A stretch of DNA of 64,000 nucleotides from Brachyhypopomus gauderio (taxonomy: Eukaryota; Chordata; Actinopteri; Gymnotiformes; Hypopomidae): positions 576,001-640,000 of the forward strand of contig NC_135211.1 in the NCBI RefSeq assembly GCF_052324685.1. The letters run 5' to 3'. The notes beneath the pieces are model-generated. The model was not told the origin of the DNA. It saw only the letters and a list, made by a program, of their open reading frames with translations, and searched no databases. Below, one piece after another: positions 25,082-64,000 of this stretch (positions within the stretch are counted from its first letter, which is position 1; every line of letters starts with the position of its first letter). The position numbers were made by a program, and so were the translations under genes.

Positions 25082-25586
25082 TAGCTGTTTCCTGATTTAT
25101 TAGTAAAAATAAGTCCTATCATCTGATATTCTAATAACTCTTATATCAATTAAAGTTTAACCATGCATTTCCTTCAGGATTATCTTGTGTAAGACTTACA
25201 GCACAAGTATTTTCAAGTTGTTTATCTTTTGTCTGGATTAATTATCATATTCCTTTTTTTAAGTATGGGTGTAACGGAGACAGGAGCCTGGCCATTCGTG
25301 AATGTAACATTAATTTTGATGTTTGTGATAGTAGAGATGATTGATTCACTTATTAGTCAAAAAATGAATTGAGAGCAAAAATAAAATGAGCATTCTATTT
25401 CATAATGTAATTTCTAGCAGTCGGTCTTTTATATAGCATATTTTGCCCTGTTTGGACTGCGTGTGATGACAAACATTTGCAAAATTTTAGAGGAAGATTT
25501 TAGAGGAGTTTTAGAGGTAGGCCTATATACAATACCTACCTGGGAGAATTCAAAGAAAATTATTACAGTATTGATGTCTGCAAAAC
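25082..25586. other. No gene seen
   Basis: AT-rich intergenic DNA. Confidence 0.35.
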
Positions 25587-26900
25587 GTTGGTAGTGTTTG
25601 TTTATTTATGAGTATGAGGTATATAATCTACAAAAGGTTGGTAGTGTTTGTTTATTTATGAGTATGAGGTATATAATCTACAAAAGGTTGGTAGTGTTTG
25701 TTTATTTATGAGTGTGAGGTATATAATCTACAAAAGTTTGGTAGTGTTTGTTTATTTATGAGTATGAGGTATATAATCTACAAAAGTTTGGTAGTGTTTG
25801 TTTATTTATGAGTATGAGGTATATAATCTACGTTGGTAGTCTTTGTTTATTTATGAGTATGAGGTATATAATCTACGTTGGTAGTGTTTGTTTATTTATG
25901 AGTATGAGGCATATAATCTACGTTGATATTGTTTGTTTATTTATGAGTATGAGGTATATAATCTACGTTGGTAGTCTTTATTTATGAGTATGAGGTATAT
26001 AATCTACGTTGGTAGTGTTTGTTTATTTATGAGTATGAGGTATATAATCTACGTTGGTAGTGTTTGTTTATTTATGAGTATGAGGTATATAATCTACGTT
26101 GATATTGTTTGTTTATTTATGAGTATGAGGTATATAATCTACGTTGGTAGTCTTTGTTTATTTATGAGTATGAGGTATATAATCTACGTTGGTAGTCTTT
26201 GTTTATTTATGAGTATGAGGTATATACTCTACGTTGGTAGTCTTTGTTTATTTATGAGTATGAGGTATATAATCTACGTTGGTAGTCTTTGTTTATTTAT
26301 GAGTATGAGGTATATAATCTACGTTGATGTTCTTTGTTTATTTATGAGTATGAGGTATATAATCTACGTTGGTAGTCTGTTTATTTATGAGTATGAGGTA
26401 TATAATCTACGTTGGTAGTCTTTGTTTATTTATGAGTATGAGGTATATAATCTACGTTGGTAGTCTTTGTTTATTTATGAGTATGAGGTATATAATCTAC
26501 GTTGGTAGTCTTTGTTTATTTATGAGTATGAGGTATATAATCTATGTTGATATTGTTTGTTTATTTATGAGTATGAGGTATATAATCTACGTTGATATTG
26601 TTTATTTATGAGTATGAGGCATATAATCTATGTTGGTAGTCTTTGTTTATTTATGAGTATGAGGTATATAATCTACGTTGGTAGTCTTTGTTTATTTATG
26701 AGTATGAGGCATATAATCTACGTTGATATTGTTTGTTTATTTATGAGTATGAGGTATATAATCTACGTTGGTAGTCTTTGTTTATTTATGAGTATGAGGT
26801 ATATAATCTACGTTGATATTGTTTGTTTATTTATGAGTATGAGGTATATAATCTACGTTGGTAGTCTTTGTTTATTTATGAGTATGAGGTATATAATCTG
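25587..26900 (+). repeat. 45-bp minisatellite, about 29 copies
   Basis: Units begin gttggtagtctttgtttatt and continue tatgagtatgaggtatataa then tctac. The first four units are 49-50 bp long (with aaaag at the end) and the rest are 45 bp, apart from two shortened units near 25978 and 26375. Unit variants (gatattg against ggtagtc, ggcat against ggtat) alternate, which suggests higher-order duplication of blocks. Open frames repeating a 15-residue unit are a consequence of the period. Confidence 0.95.
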
Positions 26901-28479: not shown

Positions 28480-30674
28480 GGGGAGACCAGGGACAAACAC
28501 TTTTTGTGATAAATCAAATAATAAATCAATAAATCAAAAACCATTTACACTGGAATAGCCAATTTGCTATATTATGAACTTCAATGTGTCAACTACTGAA
28601 ACAATGTATTTAAGTGGGTTTATGAAATATGTAGGCTACAGGTTGCAAAATTGATTTAAATACAGTCACTTCACTGTTACAACCGTCCCAGGGTACAGGG
28701 TTCAGACACCACACGTGGTGTGATGGGAGGATGAAGGTTCAGACACCACACATGGTGTGATGGGAGGATGAAGGTTCAGACACCACACATGGTGTGATGG
28801 GAGGATGAAGGATCAGACACCACACATGGTGTGATGGGAGGATGAAGGTTCAGACCACACATGGTGTGATGGGAGGATGAAGGTTCAGACACCACACATG
28901 GTGTGATGGGAGGAATGAAGGTTCAGACCACACATGGTGTGATGGGAGGATGAAGGTTCAGACACCACACATGGTGTGATGGGAGGATGAAGGTTCAGAC
29001 ACCACACATGGTGTGATGGGAGGATGAAGGTTCAGACACCACACACGGTGTGATGGGAGGATGAAGGTTCAGACACCACACATGGTGTGATGGGAGGAAT
29101 GAAGGTTCAGACACCACACATGGTGTGATGGGAGGATGAAGGTTCAGACACCACACATGGTGTGATGGGAGGATGAAGGTTCAGACACCACACATGGTGT
29201 GATGGGAGGATGAAGACACCACACATGGTGTGATGGGAGGATGAAGGTTCAGACACCACACATGGTGTGATGGGAGGATGAAGGTTCAGGCACCACACAT
29301 GGTGTGATGGGGAGGATGAAGGTTCAGGCACCACACATGGTGTGATGGGAGGATGAAGGTTCAGACACCACACATGGTGTGATGGGAGGATGAAGGTTCA
29401 GACACCACACATGGTGTGATGGGAGGATGAAGGTTCAGGCACCACACATGGTGTGATGGGGAGGATGAAGGTTCAGGCACCACACATGGTGTGATGGGGA
29501 GGATGAAGGTTCAGACACCACACATGGTGTGATGGGAGGATGAAGGTTCAGGCACCACACATGGTGTGATGGGGAGGATGAAGGATCAGACACCACACAT
29601 GGTGTGATGGGAGGATGAAGACACCACACATGGTGTGATGGGGAGGATGAAGGTTCCACACATGGTGTGATGGGGGGATGAAGGTTCAGACACCACACAT
29701 GGTGTGATGGGGAGGATGAAGGTTCAGGCACCACACACGGTGTGATGGGAGGATGAAGACACCACACATGGTGTGATGGGGAGGATGAAGGTTCAGACAC
29801 CACACATGGTGTGATGGGAGGATGAAGGTTCAGACACCACACATGGTGTGATGGGAGGATGAAGGTTCAGACACCACACATGGTGTGATGGGAGGATGAA
29901 GGTTCAGACACCACACATGGTGTGATGGGAGGATGAAGGTTCAGACACCACACATGGTGTGATGGCAGGATGCTGCAGGTGGTGTGTAGGATGCCACCGT
30001 TGCCACAGTGGGTGTTGGAGCTGTAATACATGAAACTGCATTCACTGCAGCTGCAGTGGAAGATGGAACCTGTGGTGTCACTGCTGGCGGTGGGCGATCT
30101 GTGACCAGGGATGGTGCAAAGTCACTGTCATTAAAAATATCTCTTTAAAAAGGCCAAATTCCAGTGCATACAAACCCTGCCTGAATATTTGATGTTGTTG
30201 CAGCCAGGGGAAGGGCACTCTTCACAATGCTTGGCAGATCATAAATGGTCATTGTCACTGACTACTTGGTTCAGGGACGGTTGTAACAAGGCGTTACAAT
30301 CGTCCCAGTATCACCAGTTATGTTTTCACCTCATGTGAACGAGCCTGACTGCTAGTTGGACACATGTTAATAAATTCTATTTTTAGCTTACAAAACAGTG
30401 ATTCTAATAATACTTGTTTGGATTCATAGATATTTGATCTCAGGACAGTATCCAAAAAATACCTCTGATAGAAAAGTAAAATTTTTACATTAAAAAAAAA
30501 ACACTTTTGGTGATTACCTTCTCTGGGAGTTTCAAATGTGGCTCCTTTTTTGTCAGCAAGAAGACAGTCTAACTGAGCACGTGCACAGTGAGTGTAATCA
30601 CTCTAGCTTGTTTCTGTTTGGAGGAATTCAAGGTGTTACAACCATCCCATGTTACAACTGTCCCTGGTCTCCCC
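28480..30674. mobile_element. DNA transposon with ggggagacc ends, containing a minisatellite
   Basis: The left end ggggagaccagggaca and right end tgtccctggtctcccc are inverted copies, each bordered by TA (28478-28479 and 30675-30676). Subterminal copies of a ttacaac-gtccc motif in both orientations (28677-28695, 30275-30310, 30635-30660) support a transposon end structure. No transposase frame is present. The superfamily is not assigned; a TA target would fit Tc1/mariner-like elements, but this is inference. Confidence 0.6.
28699..29970 (+). repeat. 37-bp minisatellite with a hairpin in each unit, about 35 copies
   Basis: The unit is gatgaaggttcagacaccac followed by acatggtgtgatgggag. Each copy contains acaccacacatggtgt, which can fold into a 5-bp stem (acacc/ggtgt) with a 6-base loop. 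Some units lose ggttcag or gain a G. The array lies entirely inside the transposon at 28480-30674. Confidence 0.95.
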
Positions 30675-52650: not shown

Positions 52651-53976
52651 ATGCCAGGCTACACCACCCGACCTAAGAAGGGGAGGAGGCCCAGCAAGCA
52701 CCACCACGCCTCTTCCCCTGCACAGCACCGCGGAGCCCCCGTCACCCTCGAAGCGATGCAGCAGGATCCGTTATGTGCGGTTATGCTGCTTCGGGCTCGG
52801 GAAGCCAGGACTGAGGAGTTGGCGGACTATTTCCGCGAGACCGTGGTGCGATTTTGGAAGGAGCGTCACCCCTCTCCCTCCAAGGACCTCTCACCTCTGC
52901 GGGTAGGCTCCCTCGAGCTCTGCTCCACGGAGAAGACCCCCGAGAGCGAGTTCGAGGGGGCGGACTCTCCGGACGAGGAAGAAGAGGAAGAGGACAGTTC
53001 ACCCTCTATATGCTCCGCACCCACCATAGATTATGGCGAGGGAGAAGAGGAGGTGGACTATCCCCACTCCGTGTGCTCCGCCCCAACCGAATACTACGGC
53101 GGGGAGGAGGAGGACTACCCTCCATCAGTGTATTCCGATCCCACCATAGACTACGGTGAGGAGGAGGGGTCCTACACCGAGGAGGAGGGCTACATCCCTC
53201 CGCCCGTAGGTCCCTCTACCACCGTGGAGGAAGGCGGAGAGGAGTATGACGAGGAGGAGTACCCTCCGTCGGAGTGCTCCGCATACCCTGAGGAAGAGGG
53301 CTCCTATACCGAGGAGGAAGAGGAGAGCCCTCCCCCCTCGGAACTGTCCGCCGGGACGGTGAAGAGGAGGAGGTTTCCAGAGGCGGGCTCGTCTCCCGAG
53401 CGCTCCCCAGCCAGCGACATGGACTGTTCACGGGGTGGCAGCTCGGGGCAGCCCATGAGCTGGAGCCGTGGCAGTGAGGAAGATATGGAAGCAGAGGAGG
53501 CCCCTCCCACTGCCAGGTCCGGAGGGAGATCCCCGGGTGAAGAAGGATTCCCGTACGGCCCACCGAGGGGCGGGACCAGCCGTGCTGCACCTGACGCGTC
53601 CGCCAGCCGTGCTGCACCTGACGCGTCCGCCAGCCGTGCTGCACCTGACGCGTCCGCCAGCCGCGCTGCACCTGGCGCGTCCACCAGCCGCGCTGCGCCC
53701 GGTGGAGGGTTTGCAGCGAGGGCAGGAGGAGGACCGGCCACCGCAGCCCCAGCAGCTCCCGGTCTCTCTCCCCTGATCGCTCTCCTCCTGGCGCGCAGCC
53801 TGGCGCCACTGTCATGTGTGTCCGTTCCTGTTTTCGTATGTATTCCCGTATGTCTGCCTAATCTCCTTTTCCCTTTTGTGCCTCTGTGTGTTAATGTTCC
53901 TGTTTGTGTGTTTGTAAATGTCCCGTTAAATGTGTCTAACGTGTTTTCCCCGGTCTTCCCAGGGAGGGTGTTCTAG
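52651..53976 (+). CDS. Acidic repeat protein of the non-autonomous LTR element (copy A)
   Basis: A single frame of 441 codons fills most of the interior. The start at 52651 is the first ATG after the 5' LTR and gives MPGYTTRPKKGRRPSKHHH, a basic N-terminus shared with copy B. Residues about 90-235 are very acidic and contain repeated units of the type PPSVYSxPTxxYGEEE, also found in copy B. Residues about 308-352 are five units of SRAAPDASA or close variants. From about 374 the frame becomes hydrophobic and Val/Pro/Cys-rich (VSVPVFVCIPVCLPNLLF). No gag zinc knuckle or enzymatic motif is seen. I do not recognise the protein. Survival of the frame in a copy whose 5' LTR lost its promoter is notable. 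Confidence 0.7.
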   Translation: MPGYTTRPKKGRRPSKHHHASSPAQHRGAPVTLEAMQQDPLCAVMLLRAREARTEELADYFRETVVRFWKERHPSPSKDLSPLRVGSLELCSTEKTPESEFEGADSPDEEEEEEDSSPSICSAPTIDYGEGEEEVDYPHSVCSAPTEYYGGEEEDYPPSVYSDPTIDYGEEEGSYTEEEGYIPPPVGPSTTVEEGGEEYDEEEYPPSECSAYPEEEGSYTEEEEESPPPSELSAGTVKRRRFPEAGSSPERSPASDMDCSRGGSSGQPMSWSRGSEEDMEAEEAPPTARSGGRSPGEEGFPYGPPRGGTSRAAPDASASRAAPDASASRAAPDASASRAAPGASTSRAAPGGGFAARAGGGPATAAPAAPGLSPLIALLLARSLAPLSCVSVPVFVCIPVCLPNLLFPFVPLCVNVPVCVFVNVPLNVSNVFSPVFPGRVF

Positions 53977-55035: not shown

Positions 55036-56370
55036 ATGCCCGGGTACACAGCTGCACGGAAGAAGGGGAAGAAGGCTAAGCGCCGTCACGCCTCTTCCCC
55101 TGCACGTCGCTGCGAAATGCCGGCACCCAATGGGGAGATGCAGCAGGACCAAGCGTGTGCGCACCTGCTGTGTCAAGCTCAGGCGGCTGAAGACGAATCA
55201 GAGGCAGAGTGCTTCCGGCTGTCCGCTGAGAGGATATTGAGCGAGAGGTGCTGCGCTCCGACCCAGGCATTCCCCGAAGAGGAGTCAAGCGCGCCTATTG
55301 TGGTGGGTGTAGGTGTCTTTGCCCTGACCCCTCCCGAGTACGTTGGAAGACGAGAAGGTCAGCCCCCCATCATCATTATACTCTGAACCGACGGTATATA
55401 ATGGGGAGGGCGAGGAGGTGGCCAGCCCTGTTCCATCCGTCCACTCGACCCCCACCGAGCACCACGGTGCGAAGGAAGACGTCAGCCCTCCCCCTTCCAT
55501 TTACTCGGCTCCTACCGAGTATTACGGTGAGGGAGAGGAAGACGTCAGTCCACCTCCATCCATATACTCGGAGTCTACCGAGTATTACGGAGAGGGAGAG
55601 GAAGACGTCAGTCCACCTCCATCTGTATACTCAGAGTCTACTGAGTATCGTGGTGAGCAGGAGGAAGACGTCAGTCCCCCACCGTCCGTCTGTGCCCCGC
55701 CCTCCGGGCGAAACAGCGAGAGCGAGGAGGAAGACCGCGCCTCTGTGTATTTGGAGGTGACCGTGCGGTCCAAGAAGGGGTGTCCAAGTGAGAGAGAGGT
55801 TCCTCGTTCCCCCTCGGAGGGGAGCAGCATGAGCTGTTCCTGCTACCCGACCTCGGAGGAACTGATGTTGCTGGGTCGGGGTGGTTCCGAGGGAGAGGAG
55901 GAAATGGAGACATCAAGGGGCGAGGCGGCGCGGTCGCTGGGAGCGTGTGTGGACGGTGGCACAGTCCGTAGCCCATCGTGGGGGTTCGGTGTGCCCTCGG
56001 CAGCGCCGCGAGAAGCGGTCAGTGAGCAGCGACGAGCAAGCTCTCCAGTAGCGCCCAAGAAGGCCTCCCGAGAGAGAGGACCGGGCGCCCAGTCAGCGGG
56101 AGCACCGGGCAACGCAACACTCGGAAGAAGGATCCGAAGACCAGAGTGAATCCGCCGCCTGTCTCACCTGCGACCCCAGGAGGGATCGCGCCACTGCTAG
56201 CGCTCTGGCAGGCAGCCAGAACAATTTCGTGGCTGCCTGTGCCTGTCTGTCTGTCTGTCCCAATGTTTCTCCCAAACCCCCTGTTCCCTCTTGTGCCCTT
56301 TATGTTGAATGTGCCAGTGTGTGTGATTGTAAGCATGCCCGTGTTTAATGTATTTTCCCCTGTGTTCTAG
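55036..56370 (+). pseudogene. Acidic repeat protein of copy B, frameshifted
   Basis: The start at 55036 gives MPGYTAARKKGKKAKRRHAS, parallel to copy A. The first frame runs to 55386; from about 55343 the matching sequence is in another frame, up to a stop at 56149. This part has about five units of the type SPPPSIYSAPTEYYGEGEED. The hydrophobic Val/Pro/Cys-rich tail found in copy A is in the first frame again at about 56146-56370 (VPVCLSVPMFLPNPLFPLVP). The gene is therefore broken by at least two frame changes. The conservation of layout with copy A is the main evidence that this frame was once a real gene. Confidence 0.7.
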
Positions 56371-56713: not shown

Positions 56714-56877
56714 ATACTTACCTGGCAGGGGTGAGACCATGATCAGGAAGGTGGTTCGCCCAAGGCGAGGCTCAGCCATTGCACTCAGGCTGTGCTGACC
56801 CTTGCGAATTCCCCAAATGCGGGAATCTCGACTGCATAATTTCTGGTAGTGGGGGACTGCGTTCGCGCTCTCCCCTG
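56714..56877 (+). ncRNA. U1 snRNA copy (164 nt, full length)
   Basis: The sequence begins atacttacctggcagggg, the invariant U1 5' end that pairs with 5' splice sites, and ends gttcgcgctctcccctg. At 164 nt it has the standard vertebrate U1 length. Stem-loop I to IV segments are recognisable, with an Sm-site-like aatttctgg near 56840. Differences from human U1 are scattered, partly in loops. It lies inside an LTR, with TA repeats upstream and no recognisable snRNA promoter (PSE) or 3' box, so it is more likely a retroposed copy than an active gene. It joins directly to a tRNA-derived SINE. Confidence 0.85.
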
Positions 56878-62540: not shown

Positions 62541-63250
62541 CCTTGCATCTGACCTCTGACCTTCTGTTGCTTCATAAAAGGAGCAGGAGACACAGGGAAT
62601 GGATGGGACAAGGGGTTTCCATGGTAACAAACCGTATGTTCTCTAGTGGAAAGGATCTAAAATTGAAAGTAATAAATGTTTTTTAAAACATTTGACAAAG
62701 GAAGAACATTGTAACCAGTGAACTAATGTCTACATGTTTGAATAAAGGAAATGAAACAAACAAGCTAAATGAACAGGACAAAAACAGGAAAAAACATGCA
62801 GATTATGTCCCTATTTTTGGCTCACATTGCAGAAATGTTTTAAAGTCTGTGTGGTCTAAAAGGACCTGAAGGGGGTGGAACTCTGTGAAGGTGATAGCAC
62901 GGACACACATCTCTGACGTCAACACACATCGTCATATGTTTAGAGGGTGGGGGTGGCAGCAGCAATCCTTGATGCCCCGCCTCCATCTCTCCCCCCCCCC
63001 CTCCCCTTCTCACCCTCTGGTGCCATCTGCTCAGACTGAGTGCATATCGTACAGAGAGTAGCGCACATGCGTGCGTGTGATGCTTCCTGAATCCCTCTTC
63101 TCTCTCTCCCAGCTCACGCTCTCTCTGTCTGTCTCTCCTCACCATCCTCTCCCTGCCTGATAAAGCTCAGCTGGCTGCTCACCCCTTACACTCTGATCCT
63201 CGCTCTCCTCTCCCCTCTCCTCAAACGGATTTGTGCCAAGGCTCGGGCGG
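62541..63250. other. 5' flank of the syt13-like gene
   Basis: Contains CT-rich tracts from about 62980 to 63150, which may form part of the 5' UTR or promoter of the gene that starts at 63251. No TATA box was recognised. Confidence 0.4.
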
Positions 63251-63424
63251 ATGTTTGTCTCGGCGGCGACGCTGCTGGGGGCAACCCTGGGCACCGTGTC
63301 TGGGGCGCTCACTCTCTGTGGTCTCTCACTACTCTGCAGGAACTGCAAGAAGGACAAAGTGGAGCAAGAGGATGACGCCAAGCCCAGGACAGGCAGAGAC
63401 AGCGTCCTGCACGCGCTCACACAG
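63251..63424 (+). CDS. syt13: Synaptotagmin-13-like protein, first coding exon (partial gene)
   Basis: The exon encodes 58 aa: MFVSAATLLGATLGTVSGAL, then TLCGLSLLCRNCKKD, then a charged stretch and HALTQ at the donor (CAG, then gtagga). The pattern LGATLGT, LCGL, LCR, KK matches the N-terminal membrane anchor of SYT13, and the exon ends where human SYT13 exon 1 ends. The anchor is followed by Cys pairs that could be acylated. SYT13 is an atypical synaptotagmin whose C2 domains lack most calcium ligands; those exons lie outside the window. I chose the ATG at 63251 because it fits the family; one at 63233 would add six residues. The last 39 bases of the exon are the first unit of a tandem array. 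Confidence 0.8.
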
Positions 63425-64000
63425 GTAGGACAGGCAGAGACAGCGTCCTGCACGCGCTCACACAGGTAGGACAGGCAGAGACAGCGTCCTGCACGCGCTC
63501 ACACAGGTAGGACAGGCAGAGACAGCGTCCTGCACGCGCTCACACAGGTAGGACAGGCAGAGACAGCGTCCTGCACGCGCTCACACAGGTAGGACAGGCA
63601 GAGACAGCGTCCTGCATGCTCTCACACAGGTAGGACAGGCAGAGACAGCGTCCTGCACGCGCTCACACAGGTAGGACAGGCAGAGACAGCGTCCTGCACG
63701 CGCTCACACAGGTAGGACAGGCAGAGACAGCGTCCTGCACGCGCTCACACAGGTAGGACAGGCAGAGACAGCGTCCTGCACGCGCTCACACAGGTAGGAC
63801 AGGCAGAGACAGCATCCTGCACGCGCTCACACAGGTAGGACAGGCAGAGACAGTGTCCTGCACGCGCTCACACAGGTAGGACAGGCAGAGACGGTGTCCT
63901 GCACGCGCTCACACAGGTAGGACAGGCAGAGACAGTGTCCTGCACGCGCTCACACAGGTAGGACAGGCAGAGACAGTGTCCTGCACGCGCTCACACAGGT
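63386..64000 (+). repeat. 41-bp minisatellite repeating the syt13 exon 1 donor
   Basis: Fifteen units of 41 bp: ggacaggcagagacagcgtc, then ctgcacgcgctcacacaggta. They start inside the coding exon and run to the end of the window. Every unit keeps the exon-end/donor sequence cacacag-gtagga. Later units differ by single bases (agcgtc to agtgtc or ggtgtc; one catgctctc). The array may continue beyond the window. Confidence 0.96.

Follow-up and report, generated by a model that had tools for sequence, protein, structure and literature searches.

The 64,000-nucleotide window analysed here (positions 576,001 to 640,000 of contig NC_135211.1 from Brachyhypopomus gauderio, assembly GCF_052324685.1) ends within a 41-bp tandem array, which copies the 5' splice site (donor) of the first coding exon of syt13, the predicted gene for synaptotagmin-13. 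The remaining exons of the gene lie beyond the window. They were sought in a 50-kb stretch of the contig that starts just upstream of the array and is partly N; positions beyond 64000 continue the numbering of the window (contig position is obtained by adding 576000). The features of the gene and of the array are as follows.

63251..63424, plus strand: coding part of syt13 exon 1, 58 codons, ending in phase 0 (open frame and in-frame join)
63386..64000, plus strand: 41-bp minisatellite, 15 units in the window (tandem repeat search and unit-by-unit comparison)
63386..63426, plus strand: unit 1, the 39 last coding bases of exon 1 and the donor GT (unit comparison and gene join)
63422..63430, plus strand: donor 1, CAG/GTAGGA, the sole one of 15 predicted to give full-length protein (gene join)
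63463..64000, plus strand: donors 2-15, GT at 63466 and every further 41 bp to 63999, with the same 9-mer (unit comparison)
63467..63469, plus strand: TAG in the exon 1 reading frame, included in every donor 3-15 product (spans the junction between units 2 and 3)
63591..63631, plus strand: unit 6, with two changes (27C>T, 30G>T), the most diverged together with unit 13
63796..64000, plus strand: units 11-15, all altered at CpG position 18-19 (unit comparison)
67154-67376, plus strand: predicted syt13 exon 2 (GT/AG and frame)
68026-68163, plus strand: predicted syt13 exon 3 (GT/AG and frame)
68781-69094, plus strand: predicted syt13 exon 4 (GT/AG and frame)
71147-71273, plus strand: predicted syt13 exon 5 (GT/AG and frame)
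71692-71996, plus strand: predicted syt13 exon 6 (GT/AG and frame)

Tandem Repeats Finder (TRF) returned the segment from 63386 to 64000 as a 41-bp array of 15.0 copies with 98% matches and a score of 1174, and comparison of the units in register found all 15 to be exactly 41 bp long, with no insertions or deletions. Results of both methods confirmed a sequence-only reading of the window, which had proposed an array that copies the donor about 15 times at the syt13 exon 1 border; 15 is a minimum, as the array reaches the last base of the window and its true end and copy number lie beyond it. Each unit is made up of the 39 terminal coding bases of exon 1 and the GT of the 5' splice site, in agreement with the composition and the donor positions (63425 to 63999) given in that reading. 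CAGGT ends 15 of 15 units, and its GT starts at 63425 and recurs in steps of 41 bp up to 63999. The complete donor 9-mer is CAG/GTAGGA (CAGGTAGGA) in 14 of 14 copies, so that the row of nearly identical donor sequences claimed to follow 63425 is indeed present; the fifteenth copy is interrupted after its GT by the window end. A DNA search of the genome (796.5 Mb in 840 contigs) gave at least seven matches, all of them inside the array, and no other place matched.

Nine of the 15 units are identical, unit 1 included, and the remaining six differ by one or two substitutions each, for a total of eight changed cells of five kinds (16A>G, 18C>T, 19G>A, 27C>T, and 30G>T). Whereas units 1-5 and 7-10 are the identical ones, units 11-15, furthest from the exon, form the most altered group, where 18C>T marks units 12-15, unit 13 has 16A>G in addition, and unit 11 shows 19G>A. 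This distribution would fit a recent spread of the array on its exon side. Identity of 98% and an end that lies beyond the window are features that could also arise had the assembler expanded or misplaced the array. However, the substitutions between copies are ordered (units 12-15 share 18C>T, and unit 6 carries a pair of its own), the exon copy is correctly placed within an intact gene, and the contig spans 55.0 Mb, as would be expected of a long-read assembly; an assembly artefact is, in our judgment, extremely unlikely.

The reading frame of exon 1 is open from the ATG at 63251 through 63424, and an in-frame stop precedes it at 63194. Donor 1, at 63425, and the acceptor of exon 2 (FSVQKSTEPIQP...) are both in phase 0, and this acceptor is the sole AG within 420 nt; human SYT13 presumably has an exon border at the same place. 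Joining the six exons from donor 1 produced a single open frame of 426 amino acids that ends in a stop and has no internal stop, and all five introns (5/5) are bounded by GT and AG. The downstream exons were located with motifs from human SYT13, and since GT/AG and frame served to set their boundaries, the join is a fitted one. Its least certain junction is that of exons 3 and 4, where the frame is whole with AGG/GTAACC and TAG/CGG; an exon 3 that ends one base earlier was rejected, as trials gave internal stops or different acceptors. With an approximate donor-score matrix, no GT within 62901-63385 scored 78 or more as an alternative donor for exon 1; in intron 1 outside the array, as far as it is readable, a single GT (66526, TAGGTCAGT) reached 84.

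The C2A piece of the predicted protein matched 1wfm, synaptotagmin XIII, best (E 7.1e-12, with the runner-up at E 0.0011), and Pfam C2 was found in two stretches of the 426 amino acids (E 6.7e-21). In a search with the whole protein, synaptotagmin-1 chains that contain both C2 domains came out on top (E 2.1e-27) and 1wfm followed at E 2.2e-11; 1wfm, the sole synaptotagmin XIII entry listed, has 138 residues and covers the C2A region only. The six-exon frame and the C2A match bear out the earlier assignment of gene and donor, and an intact synaptotagmin-13 gene with 63425 as its predicted coding donor is well supported. A second syt13 copy was considered and rejected: exon 1 matches its own locus alone (E 4.1e-32), the next match having an E of 6.13 and two stops.

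When six-exon joins were computed from each of the 15 donors, the full-length protein resulted from donor 1 only. Donor 2, which ends upstream of the TAG at 63467, adds 41 nt and fails by frameshift instead, with a stop after 87 codons, while the products of donors 3-15 stop after 72 codons through this TAG. The sequence-only reading had stated that only every third donor keeps the frame and that a stop appears in the second unit. The first statement is correct by length but has no consequence, as phase-0 donors 4, 7, 10, and 13 also include the TAG; the second is correct in that a stop exists, but it occupies 63467-63469, where unit 2 meets unit 3, and is present in 13 of the 15 products. As a rule, nonsense-mediated decay targets messages in which the stop precedes the last exon junction by more than about 50 nt. 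Because the stops from donors 2-15 lie 753-1331 nt upstream of that junction, all of these mRNAs are predicted targets.

Donor strength was evaluated by pairing with U1 small nuclear RNA, using the 5' end (ATACTTACCTG) of the window's own U1 gene at 56714-56877, which is a full-length match to U1 in Rfam (169.9 bits). The array donor pairs at −10.7 kcal/mol, a value equalled or beaten by 20 of the 7579 plus-strand GT sites outside the array, and the donors of exons 2-5 pair at −4.1, −5.9, −11.6, and −5.5 kcal/mol, respectively. On the approximate matrix, of which the pairing energies are independent, the array donor has a score of 84.4, and 50 of the 7579 plus-strand GT sites score at least as high. 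Because U1 pairing is strong and the matrix score is high, every copy in the array is predicted to be a credible donor. The possibility that RNA structure hides the extra donors was rejected: the folding energy of a unit together with the donor that follows it is −10.8 kcal/mol (z = 0.19), and 109 of 200 shuffles were as good. At gathering scores, Rfam has two matches in the window, the U1 gene and a long interspersed nuclear element (LINE) 3' element, and none in the array.

These properties are also what would be needed for the array to act as a sink. If intron-proximal donors, or several donors, were used to a substantial extent, the 1 to 14 extra units retained would bring early stops and decay, and array length would set the output of the gene. 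In keeping with this alternative, the donor 9-mers are identical, their U1 pairing is strong, the preceding 39 nt are copied as well (exactly in 9 of 15 units), and the later donors are no less accessible than the first in the predicted fold. On the other hand, the intact frame of 426 amino acids suggests that enough productive mRNA is made. Comparison with known arrays, given below, bears on both sides of this question.

A further alternative is that the array cancels its own effect. CAG/GT could also serve as an acceptor, and a second splice, joining donor 1 to the AG in one of the later units, might afterwards take out the retained units and restore the same message. The pyrimidine content before the array AG (0.65-0.71, 4 of 15 units) is compatible with this idea when set against the 0.59-0.82 seen at the five acceptors of the gene. 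However, the sole branch-like YTNAY site of each unit lies 5 nt before the AG of its own CAG, and the five other AGs found at 9-24 nt between this site and the CAG/GT of the next unit would be expected to capture the splice. A motif test, the only kind applied, detected no usable combination of branch site and acceptor within an array unit, and we regard removal of retained units in this manner as most improbable.

With respect to origin, minisatellites (defined by a period of 10-100 and at least four copies) form 29 intervals in 110.8 kb of readable sequence and occupy 10,118 of 110,800 readable bases, or 9.1%. Because of this density, an exon border within an array is unsurprising. The chance that at least one of ten syt13 exon borders falls inside an array is about 0.62 if borders are independent and selection is ignored, a value to be taken as an upper guide since selection removes some arrays. 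Two long minisatellites in the window, at 25585-26899 (45 bp × 29) and 28699-29972 (37 bp × 35), are part of the general richness. The 41-bp unit contains three CpG, and the changes are concentrated there: four of the five kinds affect a CpG, three of them as transitions (18C>T, 19G>A, and 27C>T) and the fourth being 30G>T, and only 16A>G lies outside. None of the five falls in the nine donor positions, an outcome with a chance probability of 0.29 and hence no evidence of selection on the donor 9-mers; five kinds of change would be too small a number to reveal it.

The syt13 array belongs to a known kind, that of exon-border minisatellites in which a 5' splice site is multiplied. The oldest case that we met is reportedly the IFI6 (6-16, G1P3) minisatellite of Turri et al. 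in 1995, the unit of which is 12 bp long. For the 31-bp variable number tandem repeat (VNTR) of CBS, reduced CBS activity is reported in the title of an article by Lievers et al. from 2001; such a link favors the sink and makes tuning by array length conceivable. The CBS repeat is designated c.1444_1467+7(16_21) (PMC2630376), and by its name its unit consists of the last 24 exonic and 7 intronic bases. Its 16-21 copies each repeat the exon end with the donor, an architecture shared with syt13 at a similar copy number; in contrast to syt13, where a 41-bp unit (39 + 2) lies at exon 1, the CBS repeat concerns an internal exon in human, a unit of 31 bp, and a length polymorphism that has been measured. 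In IFI6, two downstream repeat units serve as donors (PMC4526556).

In ABCA7, a VNTR of about 12-427 copies occupies intron 18, and its 25-bp unit starts at the GT of the exon 18 donor (PMC5954066). Retention of one unit through the second donor accounted for 2 ± 1% of isoforms whatever the length of the array, isoforms with premature termination codons rose with cycloheximide, and skipping of exon 19 increased with array length (PMC5954066). The resemblance to syt13 is that the array begins at a real donor GT and that splicing at the second donor leaves one unit in the message and changes the frame; the difference is that the unit is without exon sequence and that the measured length effect concerns exon 19 skipping. 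A more distant likeness is to intron gain by AGGT tandem duplication (ATP2A1 and the yeast genes SPOG_01682 and SOCG_00815), in which the units are also exon derived and contain a splice-site core (PMC4974935, PMC3629103), given as AGGC for the two fission yeast genes (PMC3629103). AGGT is present in the syt13 unit by way of its CAGGT end. In the intron-gain cases the repeats create a new intron, whereas the syt13 array opens an intron whose acceptor lies elsewhere.

Among the traits by which CBS, ABCA7, and IFI6 form a class are an array at an exon border and a complete donor in each unit. Correspondingly, the syt13 array begins 39 bases inside exon 1, at a border predicted from DNA, and a complete donor is found in 14 of its 14 complete copies. 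In the literature that we searched, where most subscription papers were outside reach and the gene was named only together with exon 1 and zebrafish, the syt13 border array was not found. By analogy, the mechanism would best be judged from ABCA7, which speaks for donor 1; CBS and IFI6 warn that donor leakage can matter. The rarity of one-unit retention in ABCA7 and its independence of array length (PMC5954066) argue against the sink, and we consider it unlikely.

The explanation that we favor, with a probability of about 0.7, is that the array is a minisatellite with a dominant first donor and a small leak to decay. It would have arisen by tandem duplication of the 39 last coding bases of exon 1 with the donor GT, and the duplicated array would now form the start of syt13 intron 1. 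The spliceosome would use donor 1 for most mRNAs, a dominance to be expected because one-unit retention in ABCA7 is only 2 ± 1%. The advantage of donor 1 may lie in its being proximal to the cap, made first, and preceded by a purine-rich exon stretch (63340-63385, 72% purine) that is unique and adjoins the array. A small share of transcripts would be spliced at donor 2 or later and removed by nonsense-mediated decay, and the array would be a tolerated by-product of a minisatellite-rich genome rather than a dedicated device.

Several points weigh against this explanation. Nothing local favors donor 1, as all donors have the same or nearly the same 39-nt exon context. In the fold of 63230-64000, donor 1 is the least accessible of the 15, with a mean unpaired value of 0.30 versus 0.35-0.82, the figure for donor 15 being too high because the folded segment is cut there. 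The intron-proximal one of two competing donors can win, as in DOK7, where it is also the stronger one (PMC5585400). The guidance from ABCA7 is itself qualified: its units, unlike those of syt13, copy no exon sequence, and its 2% is a steady-state value with decay active, so that true use of its donor 2 may be higher. Preference for donor 1 in syt13 is a prediction from DNA.

At its other end, intron 1 carries a second, pyrimidine-rich tandem array of 17 bp × 20.7, located beyond the window at 66816-67144 (L008:3516-3844). It is 329 nt long, 88% pyrimidine, and free of AG, and it stops 9 nt before syt13 exon 2. It is part of an AG-free run of about 420 nt upstream of exon 2 that no other in the readable 110.8 kb exceeds, the next being 247. 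With 74% matches at its 17-bp period versus 98% in the donor array, the acceptor-side array looks the older of the two. Together, the two arrays might be imagined as a length-variable rheostat of splicing, in which the diversion to decay would depend on the number of donors and acceptor strength on how long the pyrimidine array is, so that allele lengths would tune Syt13 output. We hold this to be very unlikely; repeat density alone could yield an intron with donor and acceptor regions built from repeats.

Other features were observed in and around the gene and elsewhere in the window. Exon 2 of syt13 contains an 18-bp in-frame tandem duplication of 2.3 copies (ITSPKV twice, L008:3934-3974), and an array of 37 bp × 6.7 begins 44 bases past the end of the syt13 stop codon (L008:8740-8987). 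Further downstream, there is a weak PR/SET-domain match at L009:8613-8969 (PRDM2_PR at 28.2 bits versus a cut-off of 27, with SET below its cut-off), which would presumably fit prdm11 as a neighbor of syt13. Within the window, open frames at 52651-53976 and 55036-55386 both start with MPGYT (at 52651 and 55036, respectively). Acidic PPSVYSxPTxxYGE-like repeats occur in the frame at 52651-53976 and in a third frame at 55343-56149, and a 27-bp coding repeat is found at 53576-53696.

The syt13 locus represents a natural version of the classical duplicated-donor experiment, with many identical 5' splice sites in a near-identical 39-nt exon context. Counts of syt13 splice junctions would gauge how far position alone, that is, being made first and lying nearest the cap, decides the choice of donor. 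With the array, the class represented by human CBS, ABCA7, and IFI6 gains a probable example from a fish.
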